A stretch of DNA of 23,875 bases from positions 3,009-26,883 of the forward strand of contig DETM01000007.1 of NCBI GenBank assembly GCA_002361655.1. Reading direction: 5' to 3'. Positions 6,530-14,216 of the stretch are shown one piece after another. The DNA comes from Prevotella sp. UBA3288 (GTDB lineage: Bacteria > Bacteroidota > Bacteroidia > Bacteroidales > Bacteroidaceae). Position 1 is the first letter of the stretch. Every line of letters begins with the position of its first letter. A program made the translations under genes and the position numbers. The notes below the pieces were generated by a model that saw only the letters and a program-made list of their open reading frames with translations, was not told the DNA's origin and did no database searches.

Positions 6530-7888
6530 TTAAAAGAAGAGTGATTTCTTGAAAAACTTCTCTGCCTTCTCCAGTTGGTGCTTGTGACTGAACACCATCA
6601 CGGAGTCGCCAGGCAGAATGCGGGTGTTGCCATTGACCAGGATGCCCTTGCCGTCGCGCACCAGTCCGCCGATGGTGATGCCGAAGGGCAGTCCCAACTC
6701 CTTGACCGCCTTCTTGGTGACCTTAGAGCCTTCGGCAGCCACAAATTCGGCCACGTCGGCCTCGACCATCATCAGCGACCGCATGTTGCGCACATCGGCC
6801 TTGAGCATCATCTGGAAGATATGGCTGGCCGCCACCGTCTTCTTATTGATAATGGTGCCTATGTCGAGACTCTCGGCCATGCTGACATAGTCGAGATTTT
6901 CGACCATGGCCACCGTCTTGCGCACACCGAGTTTCTTGGCTGTCAGACAAGCGAGGATGTTGGTCTCGGCATTGCCGGTCAGGGCCACGAAAGCCTGGGT
7001 GTGGCGGATGCCCTCTTCGCTGAGCAGACCCAGGTCGCGTCCGTCGCCGTGGATGACCATCGCATCGTTGTTGGCCAGCAGTTGGTTGAGGCGCTCACAG
7101 CGGTCGGCATTGACCTCGATGATCTTGCAGTTCATATAGTCGGGCATGGTCAGGGCCGCCCGGACGGCCGTCTTGCCGCCACCCATGATGATGACGTTGT
7201 GCACATCCTCGTAGTGCTCCTTGCCCACTATCTTGCGGATATAAGGTATATATTCAGAGGTGGTCATGAAGTAGGCCAGGTCGTGCAGTTGCAGCACGTC
7301 CATACCGCCGGGGATGATGGCATCGGTGCCCCGCTTGATGGCCACCACATGGTAGGGGTCGTCGGGACCGCAGAGGTCTTTCAGCGGCTGGTTGAGGATC
7401 TCGCAGCCCTCACGCAGTTTGATGCCCAGCAGCACCAGGGCGCCGTCGTGCACATCCCACCGCTGCCGTACCCACGACAGTTTCAGACCGCTGATGATGT
7501 CGGCGGCAGCGAGCACCTCGGGATAGACCAGGGAATCGATGCCCAGGTCGTGGAAGAAGGGCTGGTTCTGTGGCGACAGATACTCGTAGTTGTCGATGCG
7601 GGCCACCGTCTTCTTGGCTCCCAGGGCATGTGCCAGGGTGCAGGCCGTGATATTGCGGCTCTCGTAGCGGGTGACTCCCACAAAGAGGTCGGCACTGCCC
7701 ACCCCGGCATCTTTCAAGGCCTTGATGCTGGTGGGCGAGTCGTTGATGGCCATGATGTCGTAACTGGAGTCCATGTTGCTCAGCCGCTCTTCACTATCGT
7801 CGATGAGCACGCAGTCGTGATTCTCCGTTGACAGGAGTTTCGACAGATGGATACCTACGGCACCGGCGCCTGCTATGACTATCTTCAT
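6530..7888 (-). CDS. trkA: Trk potassium uptake regulatory subunit TrkA
   Basis: TrkA is the cytoplasmic NAD(H)/nucleotide-binding regulator that gates TrkH. The 452-residue protein has the usual duplicated layout. The first RCK N-domain begins MKIVIAGAGAVG (GxGxxG at 7-12, acidic residue near 30) and is followed by an RCK C-domain (about 140-215). The second RCK N-domain starts near 231 with GGGKTA (236-241, GxGxxA), followed by a second RCK C-domain to the end. An upstream in-frame start at 7990 would add 34 residues encoded by a tandem repeat and by antisense of the dxs 3' end. The ATG at 7888 begins exactly at the Rossmann fold, so it is preferred. That ATG lies partly inside a 7-bp tandem repeat array. 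The gene sits between dxs and trkH, a common Bacteroidales order. Confidence 0.95.
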   Translation of the reverse strand: MKIVIAGAGAVGIHLSKLLSTENHDCVLIDDSEERLSNMDSSYDIMAINDSPTSIKALKDAGVGSADLFVGVTRYESRNITACTLAHALGAKKTVARIDNYEYLSPQNQPFFHDLGIDSLVYPEVLAAADIISGLKLSWVRQRWDVHDGALVLLGIKLREGCEILNQPLKDLCGPDDPYHVVAIKRGTDAIIPGGMDVLQLHDLAYFMTTSEYIPYIRKIVGKEHYEDVHNVIIMGGGKTAVRAALTMPDYMNCKIIEVNADRCERLNQLLANNDAMVIHGDGRDLGLLSEEGIRHTQAFVALTGNAETNILACLTAKKLGVRKTVAMVENLDYVSMAESLDIGTIINKKTVAASHIFQMMLKADVRNMRSLMMVEADVAEFVAAEGSKVTKKAVKELGLPFGITIGGLVRDGKGILVNGNTRILPGDSVMVFSHKHQLEKAEKFFKKSLFF

Positions 7889-7949
7889 AATTCGTAATTC
7901 GCAACTCGTAATTCGTAATTCGTAACTCTCAACTCTCAACTCCCAACTC
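7887..7949 (-). repeat. Nine-copy heptamer array joining dxs and trkA
   Basis: Read on the minus strand, nine consecutive 7-bp units follow the consensus GARTTRN: GAGTTGG, GAGTTGA twice, GAGTTAC, GAATTAC twice, GAGTTGC, GAATTAC and GAATTAT. The array encodes the last six residues and the TGA stop of dxs, fills the whole intergenic gap, and its last unit contributes the A and T of the trkA ATG. Seven is not a multiple of three, so a change in copy number would alter the dxs C terminus, its stop position and the spacing to trkA. Confidence 0.9.
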
Positions 7950-9827
7950 CCTAACGCACCGCTTGATGCTCTCGATGTCGAGTCCGACAATCTGGCGGAG
8001 TTCAGCCACGGTGCCGTGCTCTACAAACTGGTCGGGCAGTCCGAGACGGATGACGTGCGGACAGTAGCCGTGATCGCTCATCCACTCAAGGACGGCAGAG
8101 CCCAGTCCACCATTGCGTACGCCGTCTTCGATGGTGATGACGTGCTTGAAGCGGCTGCCCACCTCGTGGAGAATCTGTTCGTCGAGCGGTTTCAGGAAGC
8201 GCATGTCGTAGACGGCAGTCTGTATCTGGTCGTACATGGCACATTCGACAGCGGCCTTCAGGGCATCGTTGCCGATGGGGCCCAGGGTAAGGATGGCCAC
8301 ATCGCTGCCCTCACGGAGTTTGCGCCCGGTGCCTACGGCAATCTCCTCCAACGGACAACGCCAGTCGACCAGCGAGCCACAGCCACGGGGATAGCGGATG
8401 ACGAAGGGCCCCTTGCCGTCGAGTTGAGCGGTGTACATCATCCGTCGCAACTCGTGCTCGTCGAGTGGTGAGGCGATGGTCAGGTTGGGTATGGGGCGGA
8501 GGGCTGCCAGGTCGAAGGCACCATGGTGGGTGGGGCCGTCTTCGCCCACCAGTCCGGCCCTATCGAGACAGAGCACGACGGGCAACTTGAGTATGGCCAC
8601 ATCGTGGATGATATTATCATAAGCCCTCTGTGCGAAGGCACTATAGATATTGCAGAAGGGCAGCAGCCCGTCCTTGGCCATGCCGGCGGAGAAGGTGACG
8701 GCGTGTCCCTCGGCGATGCCCACGTCGAACATGCGGTCGGGCATCTCTGCCATCGGTATATTCATCGAGCACCCGGTAGGCATGGCCGGCGTAACGCCGA
8801 CGATACGTGGGTTCTGTCTGGCCAGTTCAAGCAGTGTGTGTCCAAAGACGTCCTGGAACTTCGGCGGCTTGTTCTTGTTGTCGCCATGAATGAGTTCGCC
8901 GGTATCAGGGTCGAACTTACCGGGAGCGTGCCACACGGGCTTGTAGTTCTCGGCGGGGGCATAGCCGTGGCCTTTCTTGGTATGGAGATGGAGCAATTTG
9001 GGCCCCTTCATGTCCTTCAGTTGCCGGAGGATGCGTACCAACTCCTTCACATCGTGGCCGTCGAAGGGTCCGAAGTAGCGGATGTTCATCCCCTCGAAGA
9101 TGTTCTGCTGCTGGGTGATGGCACTCTTCAGGGCGTTAGACAGACGGATGATGCCTTTCTTCCGGTCTTCGGTGAGCAGTCCCTGCTGGGCTAGCCACCG
9201 TGAGGCCTTGAAGCGGATGGAGTTGTAGGTCTCGTTGGTGCTCAGGCTGATGAGATACTCCTTCATGCCTCCCACCGAGCGGTCGATAGACATGTCGTTG
9301 TCGTTGAGCACGATGAGCAGGTCGTTGGGCGACGACGACACATTGTTGAGTCCCTCGAAGGCCAGTCCGCCACTCATGGCTCCATCGCCGATGACGGCCA
9401 CCACCTTGCGGTTGGTGCCTTTGGCCGCCACCGCCATGCCCAATGCAGCAGAGATGCTGTTGGAGGCATGTCCGCAGATGAAAGCATCGTATTCGCTCTC
9501 CTCGGGGGTGGGGAACGGTCGGATGCCGTGCAACTTACGGTTGGTGCAGAACTGCTCGCGGCGCCCCGTCAATATCTTGTGGCCATAGGCTTGATGCCCC
9601 ACATCCCAGACGATCCGGTCGCTGGGGGTGTTGAAGACATAGTGAAGCGCCACCGTCAGTTCCACCACACCCAGGCTGGAAGCCAGGTGTCCGGGGTTGA
9701 CCGACAACTCTTGTATGATGTCGTCCCTGAGTTCTGCGCACAGTTTTGGCAGCAACTCAGGTTTCATGAGCCTCAGTTGTGTGGGATTGTCGATGGTACT
9801 CAGTATTTCGAGTTTCTTATGTTCCAC
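7929..9827 (-). CDS. dxs: 1-deoxy-D-xylulose-5-phosphate synthase
   Basis: Dxs condenses pyruvate and glyceraldehyde 3-phosphate to DXP with thiamine diphosphate, the first step of the MEP isoprenoid pathway. The 632-residue protein has PGHLASS near residue 46, the ThDP/Mg motif GDGAMSGG (147-154), then NN, and the transketolase pyrimidine-domain glutamate E373 in DVGIAEGH. RYPRG and the C-terminal transketolase domain follow. Length is standard. The last residues (ELGVES) are encoded by the heptamer array that leads into trkA. It is preceded by ilvN across a 68-bp gap filled by a 15-bp repeat and followed by trkA and trkH. Confidence 0.97.
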   Translation of the reverse strand: MEHKKLEILSTIDNPTQLRLMKPELLPKLCAELRDDIIQELSVNPGHLASSLGVVELTVALHYVFNTPSDRIVWDVGHQAYGHKILTGRREQFCTNRKLHGIRPFPTPEESEYDAFICGHASNSISAALGMAVAAKGTNRKVVAVIGDGAMSGGLAFEGLNNVSSSPNDLLIVLNDNDMSIDRSVGGMKEYLISLSTNETYNSIRFKASRWLAQQGLLTEDRKKGIIRLSNALKSAITQQQNIFEGMNIRYFGPFDGHDVKELVRILRQLKDMKGPKLLHLHTKKGHGYAPAENYKPVWHAPGKFDPDTGELIHGDNKNKPPKFQDVFGHTLLELARQNPRIVGVTPAMPTGCSMNIPMAEMPDRMFDVGIAEGHAVTFSAGMAKDGLLPFCNIYSAFAQRAYDNIIHDVAILKLPVVLCLDRAGLVGEDGPTHHGAFDLAALRPIPNLTIASPLDEHELRRMMYTAQLDGKGPFVIRYPRGCGSLVDWRCPLEEIAVGTGRKLREGSDVAILTLGPIGNDALKAAVECAMYDQIQTAVYDMRFLKPLDEQILHEVGSRFKHVITIEDGVRNGGLGSAVLEWMSDHGYCPHVIRLGLPDQFVEHGTVAELRQIVGLDIESIKRCVRELGVES

Positions 9828-14080: not shown

Positions 14081-14108
14081 TATTCTATTGTATTTTTATT
14101 GTATTTCT

Positions 14109-14216
14109 GGGGCTTCTGGGGCCACTGGGTTTTCTGGGGCCACTGGGGCGACTGGGGCTTCTGGGGCTTCTGGGGCCACTGGGGCCACTGGGTTTTCTGA
14201 GGCTTCTGGGGCGACT
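14109..14216 (-). repeat. Twelve-copy 9-bp GC-rich array between PBP1A and ilvD
   Basis: Twelve uninterrupted 9-bp units of consensus GGGGCNNCT (plus strand) fill most of the 152-bp gap, built from four main variants: GGGGCTTCT, GGGGCCACT, GGGGCGACT and GGGTTTTCT. A partial unit follows. A 28-bp A/T-rich leader separates the array from the ilvD ATG. The array has no spacers and no dyad symmetry within units, so it is not a CRISPR. Confidence 0.93.

Follow-up and report, generated by a model that had tools for sequence, protein, structure and literature searches.

Tandem arrays at the junctions of the ilv-dxs-trk block

We analysed a 23,875-nucleotide stretch of Prevotella sp. UBA3288 (contig DETM01000007.1, positions 3,009 to 26,883; hereafter the window), in which seven genes lie on the minus strand in the order PBP1A, ilvD, ilvB, ilvN, dxs, trkA and trkH, names that agree with NCBIfam. 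Four of the six junctions in this block carry short tandem arrays with units of 9, 9, 15 and 7 bp, as had been noticed in a first reading made from the letters alone (the sequence-only reading) and was borne out by Tandem Repeats Finder (TRF). The two very short gaps, ilvB-ilvN (4 bp) and trkA-trkH (15 bp), are array-free, as that reading had also stated. The genome that holds the window is a 2.14 Mb draft in 66 contigs and is 69% complete. The block is laid out as follows.

14233..16662, minus strand: PBP1A family penicillin-binding protein gene (NCBIfam); the gene end borders the first array
14105..14222, minus strand: 9-bp array of the PBP1A-ilvD junction, 13.1 units (TRF); mRNA-strand units AGCCCCAGA / CCCCAGTGG
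14081..14104, minus strand: A-rich leader from the array to the ilvD ATG; contains AAATACAATAGAA at 14083-14095, common to the ilvB leader
12269..14080, minus strand: ilvD (NCBIfam)
12188..12272, minus strand: 9-bp array of the ilvD-ilvB junction, about 9 units (TRF); the ilvD stop codon is the outer array edge
12156..12187, minus strand: A-rich leader from the array to the ilvB ATG; contains the 13-mer AAATACAATAGAA at 12166-12178
10449..12155, minus strand: ilvB (NCBIfam)
9896..10444, minus strand: ilvN (NCBIfam)
9836..9900, minus strand: 15-bp A+T-rich array of the ilvN-dxs junction, 4.5 units (TRF)
7929..9827, minus strand: dxs (NCBIfam)
7884..7949, minus strand: 7-bp array of the dxs-trkA junction, about 9 units (TRF), divided between a TTCGTAA sub-array and an AACTCTC sub-array that follows it
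6530..7888, minus strand: trkA, starting at ATG 7888; the mechanical open reading frame (ORF) to 7990 is too long, as TrkA profiles begin at its residue 35
5060..6514, minus strand: trkH (NCBIfam)

On the mRNA strand the first two arrays share one layout, in which the stop codon is followed by C-rich 9-mers, an A-rich leader and the ATG; at PBP1A-ilvD the template strand is the G-rich strand. At dxs-trkA, GAGTTGA units come first and AATTACG units after, with the stop codon inside the array, 7-mers following it, and the ATG again inside the array. The sequence-only reading held that the arrays supply several codons of the flanking genes. This is so for the dxs stop, whose TGA (7929-7931) lies within the heptamer array together with the six final codons of the gene (ELGVES), for the trkA ATG (7886-7888), which is a variant unit (AATTATG instead of AATTACG), and for the ilvD TAG at the array edge; the ilvN stop is a weak case, as the outer part of the 15-bp array, where it falls, is the most degenerate.

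Turnover and genome-wide distribution of the arrays

The nearest named relatives found are Prevotella metagenome-assembled genomes (MAGs) from roe deer rumen and reticulum, and dxs is 91% identical to that of RGIG4836 and RGIG4792. In the three nearest species found (these two and SRR14411260_bin.2) the gene order is kept and all four window arrays are absent. Gap lengths in the sisters were measured to the position aligned with the window start codon; an earlier in-frame ATG is present in places, by 3 bp for ilvB in L099 and L100 and by about 51 bp for ilvN in L099. In order, the values are for the window, RGIG4836, RGIG4792 and SRR14411260_bin.2.

PBP1A-ilvD gap: 152 bp; 28, 28, 30
ilvD-ilvB gap: 113 bp; 16, 16, 2
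ilvB-ilvN gap: 4 bp; 120, 121, 3
ilvN-dxs gap: 68 bp; 28, 28, 126
dxs-trkA gap: 40 bp; -4, 123, 43
trkA-trkH gap: 15 bp; 22, 6, 4

Three of the four array-bearing spacers are thus longer in the window, at 152 bp against 28-30, 113 bp against 2-16, and 68 bp against 28, the last relative to two of the three sisters. Array-free sister junctions rule out the arrays as ancestral features, and on this alignment evidence they are recent and lineage-specific. The sisters have a different gap filler in the same operon, where the window species has an array or almost no gap: inverted-repeat inserts of about 120 bp lie at ilvB-ilvN in two of them (L099, L100) and at dxs-trkA in one (L100). In RGIG4836 the ilvB-ilvN insert continues into an in-frame extension of ilvN, and a small AATCTTC array lies at trkA-trkH.

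Turnover was also evident at other junctions. We compared the window and four further stretches of its genome, chosen for holding arrays, with G408 and G158 (taken as RGIG4836 and RGIG4792); 36 of the 59 junctions tried were found in a sister, giving 59 comparisons. An array was present in the window genome in 25 comparisons, and in only 4 of these did the sister also have one; in the 34 comparisons without a window-genome array, the sister had one in 7. One array, of unit AGTGAAG, is common to both genomes (57 vs 43 bp), and at the other three junctions with arrays in both the units are different or only similar. Across the genus, the dxs-trkA junction was readable at 79 of 80 loci, and 14 carry an array (score at least 40). 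The unit is 7 bp long in 12 of these; four loci have AGTGAAG-type units and the other units differ. Array presence at this junction (14 of 80 labelled rows, including the window and leaving out a case with a 44-bp period) requires at least 13 state changes on a quick dxs + trkA tree that leaves 18 of 78 inner branches open. A 4-bp dxs-trkA overlap, found in 31 of 81 rows, needs 20 changes on the same tree.

To see how arrays are distributed, we sampled 61 stretches of the window genome (1,032,979 bp, 48% of the genome). The sample is not random, being made up of contig starts and of stretches on C13, C42, C53, C61 and C63 picked for BLAST matches to the ilvD-junction array. Genes were called with a home-made codon-usage caller, whose starts can be misplaced; junctions of at least 21 bp were counted, and a TRF score of at least 50 was taken as an array. 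We found arrays at 105 of 509 such junctions, compared with 1, 3, 1, 0 and 0 in five dinucleotide shuffles, and densities of 985 per Mb in noncoding and 72 per Mb in coding sequence. In gaps of 21-200 bp, 65 of 283 co-directional, 7 of 45 convergent and 3 of 47 divergent gaps carried an array. These figures agree with the earlier suggestion that junctions tend to acquire repeats; a genome-wide scan had been named as the place where that idea could fail, and enrichment is what this sample showed. The loci around dxs in 80 named relatives (1.03 Mb in all) behave alike, with arrays at 94 of 442 junctions versus 1-3 in shuffles, and at 60 of 277 co-directional, 7 of 32 convergent and 2 of 39 divergent gaps of 21-200 bp. 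Among small samples from four outside-clade controls, two of them same-genus genomes of lower G+C and two from other families, co-directional gaps of this size carried arrays in 0 of 35 (G016), 2 of 31 (G010), 0 of 21 (G025) and 0 of 9 (G030). The trait is therefore not peculiar to the block that the sequence-only reading described; it is seen across the genome and in many related species. We also rejected the block as a special cluster: its run of four array junctions is the longest in the sample, and such a run was matched in 17% of 5000 permutations. Runs of four occur twice (permutation P 0.011), and the window was itself chosen for holding one of the two.

Array periods peak at 7, 8, 9 and 22 bp plus multiples, and a TRF-free lag count agrees. 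Periods 1-6 are nearly absent, with thresholds that disfavour very short arrays. The 7-, 8- and 9-bp arrays begin at the stop codon (class medians -2 to 4 bp).

The arrays inside genes differ from those between them. In the window genome the period is divisible by three in 52 of 65 coding arrays vs 39 of 125 noncoding ones (Fisher P 1e-10), and the 9-mer family occurs in frame within genes too. An (APE)6 stretch in an RlmD-like rRNA methyltransferase-like protein (L011 12944-14449) is absent from 11 of 11 aligned relatives, of which 10 have a four-residue loop such as GLTG at the site and one a somewhat longer loop. Similarly, an (NGA/NEA)n stretch in the linker of a pseudouridine synthase (L210 10105-11730) is absent from 8 of 8 aligned relatives that are about half identical. 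In the window itself, a 39-bp tandem repeat (22948-23040, 2.4 copies) lies in the open frame of a SprA/Sov-like gene.

Three further kinds of repeat were observed. The period-22 arrays form a separate class of about 2-6 copies, often in longer or in divergent or convergent gaps, with units that differ widely and are in some cases palindromic. Arrays with a 22-bp row number 22 in the window-genome sample and 27 in the 80 relatives, and the peak is also present in the lag count. There are also MITE-like (miniature inverted-repeat transposable element-like) hairpin elements, with a palindromic core near CGCGTACCGCG...CGCGGTACGCG between inverted short arrays whose units vary among copies (TGACAGA, AATACAGT, GATACAGAT). 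Lastly, inverted pairs of short arrays within one gap, which could form long stems, were seen at L109 (9-bp units) and at L114, L116, L121, L137 and L152 (7-bp units); at four of these loci the pair sits in a convergent gap and is perhaps terminator-like.

Period-22 arrays, window genome, for example: L012 9816-9947; L081 12996-13099; L090 1045-1128; L094 3488-3563; L098 1498-1571
Period-22 arrays elsewhere: relatives L107, L116, L141, L178; G010 L190, L191
Hairpin elements, window genome: L011, gap of 756 bp; L012, gaps of 1221 and 595 bp; L085, gap of 964 bp

Origin and possible effects

Taken together, we favour a reading in which the arrays are young slippage-type expansions tolerated where they disrupt neither a reading frame nor a promoter, with no need for an array-specific regulator, and give it a probability of roughly 0.7. 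Slippage-type amplification, a process suggested by the pattern we observed, would be active throughout the genome in this Prevotella group and would yield 7-, 8- and 9-bp units and some longer ones. Arrays would be kept mainly where an insertion costs little, which is to say right after the stop codon in co-directional gaps, whatever the unit length; short divergent gaps, which should hold promoters, seldom carry them. Inside genes, those kept would mostly have a period divisible by three and lie at tolerant loops. Amplification that is blind to sequence, followed by sorting on reading frame, would leave such a difference between coding and noncoding arrays. Because the same unit family grows in frame inside enzymes, the data suggest a single source of mutation on which two different filters act, one at junctions and one in genes, and this in-frame growth counts against a function belonging only to junctions.

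The sequence-only reading had also argued that, as unit sequences differ between junctions, the arrays are not one repeat spread by copying. We found nothing against this for the 7- and 15-bp arrays; the two 9-bp arrays, however, belong to one dispersed family and have a common leader. A BLAST search with the ilvD-junction array matched the ilvB-junction array (76% identity, E 1e-15) and seven further places in the window genome, and the 13-bp leader AAATACAATAGAA has two copies in the 1.03-Mb sample, upstream of the ilvD and ilvB starts only. The sister junctions are without the 9-bp arrays and without this leader, and array and leader were therefore probably copied from one ilv junction to the other within this lineage. 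More broadly, seeds of the 9-bp family would also be copied between places, with the ilvD and ilvB junctions probably having exchanged array and leader.

Longer spacers would loosen termination-reinitiation coupling. Reinitiation by the upstream ribosome is expected to be poor across spacers of 113-152 bp, and translation of ilvD and of ilvB would then likely begin from the unstructured, A-rich leader of each gene. Predicted folding of the start region is 0.0 kcal/mol for ilvD and ilvB in the window vs -2.0 to -4.9 in the sisters; it is -3.5 for dxs (sisters -5.3, -3.3 and -2.7) and -4.2 for trkA (sisters -19.4, -14.3 and -3.4).

Several points weigh against our reading. Slippage itself was not seen directly, and the process is inferred. 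On its own it leaves unexplained the related 9-mer units at many unlinked places, the near absence of periods 1-6 and the sharp 22-bp peak. In gaps above 200 bp there is little difference by type (18 of 71 co-directional, 5 of 13 convergent and 9 of 50 divergent gaps carry an array), and in the 80 relatives the frame filter is weaker, with the period divisible by three in 22 of 54 coding vs 21 of 126 noncoding arrays (P 0.001). Finally, and as the strongest pointer to something beyond a neutral process, in all 8 of the 8 G-quadruplex (G4)-capable period-9 arrays in co-directional gaps of the window-genome sample the G-rich strand is the template, an orientation that pure neutrality does not require.

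This last observation bears on the idea that the arrays act on RNA or transcription and set the expression of the downstream cistron, the C-rich 9-mers by loading Rho or by forming G-quadruplexes on the template strand and the purine-rich 7- and 8-mers by binding S1 or cold-shock-like proteins near the start codon. Such roles have been suggested by MacGregor 2015 (PMC4679880) and in a Nostoc paper (PMC2670836), and the start of the 7-, 8- and 9-bp arrays at the stop codon would suit them. Within called genes the orientation of G4-capable 9-mer arrays is mixed (5 to 4, n=9); the contrast with the gaps has a P of 0.08. Outside the eight, one period-23 array in a gap (L205) also scores as G4, and its G-rich strand is mRNA-sense. 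On the mRNA strand of the window genome, G outnumbers C in 17 of the 21 arrays with a period of 7/14/21 (17 to 4), and C outnumbers G in 16 of the 19 with a period of 9/18/27 (16 to 3), ties excluded; both biases are significant in this genome. In the 80 relatives the corresponding counts are 20 to 17 and 4 to 2 (P 0.69), neither significant, and with the 7-mer bias gone there we rejected strand bias as a general RNA-level signature. Weak mRNA structure as a selected property was likewise rejected, as the arrays are not consistently less structured than shuffles. Avoidance of G-rich quadruplexes in mRNA would explain the 9-mer orientation, as would descent from few copies. With sisters that keep the gene order without arrays, and units that differ among junctions, we consider a role in RNA or transcription unlikely.

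We place below it in likelihood the idea that these Prevotella actively generate arrays, by preference in steps of 7, 8, 9 and 22 bp and hardly ever of 1-6, and in doing so rewrite their operon junctions again and again. Here selection would sort the arrays by strand, leaving G4-capable 9-mers on the template only, and the arrays would be spacers that insulate the cistrons of one operon from each other.

Next, and improbable, is a small mobile or conversion-spread element, comprising array and leader, that moves the 9-bp arrays between junctions. The eight other window-genome places that match the ilvD-junction query, the ilvB junction among them, and the leader common to the ilvD and ilvB junctions speak for it. 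However, the other 9-mer arrays have other leaders and the 7- and 15-bp arrays are unrelated. No fixed ends, terminal inverted repeats or target duplications were noticed in the junction sequences, although no formal search for them was made.

It is highly improbable that the arrays are contingency loci, in which changes in unit number would switch or tune dxs, trkA or ilv expression between cells. The arrays do touch stop and start codons, and the sequence-only reading had listed phase variation among the possible effects. Yet the anatomy of the block appears to offer no basis for it: no downstream reading frame depends on slippage, which in the dxs-trkA array would alter only a few C-terminal dxs residues, and no recognised promoter spacing is tied to unit number. 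Internal promoters were rejected too, the promoter motif TANNTTTG being absent from all six block gaps. The genes are moreover housekeeping genes, and array presence itself is not conserved. We give almost no credence to an assembly artefact, which the draft state of this MAG might invite, since similar arrays are also present in records without a MAG label; Prevotella sp. ne3005 (L134), for example, has five of them within co-directional gaps of at most 250 bp.

Comparison with known repeat systems

The closest cases found are heptamer repeats, among them the G-rich units GGGNATC / GGGGA(C/T)T that Rehm et al. 2015 (PMC4692102) describe in Xanthomonas and Nostoc. Like the arrays of the window genome, these are short tandem units, mostly noncoding, between aligned ORFs and rare at divergent ones, overlapping stop codons and G4-capable, with unit number varying between species and no tie to surface genes. 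They differ in having one 7-bp consensus, in favouring four units and in lying, for the most part, at gene pairs common to two species. The window genome has instead many units, of 7, 8, 9, 15 and 22 bp, including a family of G4-capable 9-mers, and its arrays show high turnover relative to sister species. The G4-capable unit here is 9 bp long (CTGGGGCTT/CTGGGGCCA) and not a GGGNATC-type heptamer, its quadruplex being a motif-based prediction. Rehm et al. also pass on a suggestion from an earlier survey, in which the heptamer unit mirrors the length of DNA that sits in the polymerase active site.

TAACTGA heptamers, also among the closest cases, have been described in Beggiatoaceae, Cyanobacteria and five Bacteroidetes (MacGregor 2015, PMC4679880). 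They too lie in gaps just upstream of start codons and overlap upstream stop codons, and in some Bacteroidetes cases close relatives have shorter, repeat-free gaps. That system is one unit sequence, while here there are several unit lengths and in-frame inserts in genes; TAACTGA was not among the array units listed when these were read by eye. The short tandemly repeated repetitive (STRR) sequences of filamentous cyanobacteria, mostly 7-bp tandem repeats that also occur between operon genes such as hupS-hupL (PMC2670836), differ in phylum and units. The arrays resemble them in their head-to-tail short units enriched in noncoding DNA and in favouring aligned over divergent ORFs (21-200 bp); a 7-bp unit is found in the block at dxs-trkA only, the other arrays having units of 9, 9 and 15 bp. 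BrickBuilt, a MITE with a 23-nt minisatellite in Porphyromonas gingivalis (PMC4596501), likewise belongs to the Bacteroidales and forms intergenic tandem arrays, with a strain-variable unit number. It is a leader/tail element with terminal inverted repeats, of which, short of a formal search, none were noticed around the window arrays. Contingency repeats alter coding frame or promoter spacing through unit number; the block arrays lie between stop and start.

In the open-licence literature, judged by titles, we found no report of such arrays in Prevotella; for Bacteroidetes there is MacGregor 2015 (PMC4679880). Earlier reports of heptamer-type repeats between genes describe a single consensus in each case. 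The present analysis adds the variety of units that one genome holds, the turnover of arrays on a phylogeny at named junctions, and the in-frame growth of the same family in genes. With sisters of the same gene order showing arrays gained or lost at named operon junctions, origin and effect become testable: which junctions are tolerant, which unit lengths arise, and how coupling within an operon responds to a spacer that lengthens from 16 to 113 bp.

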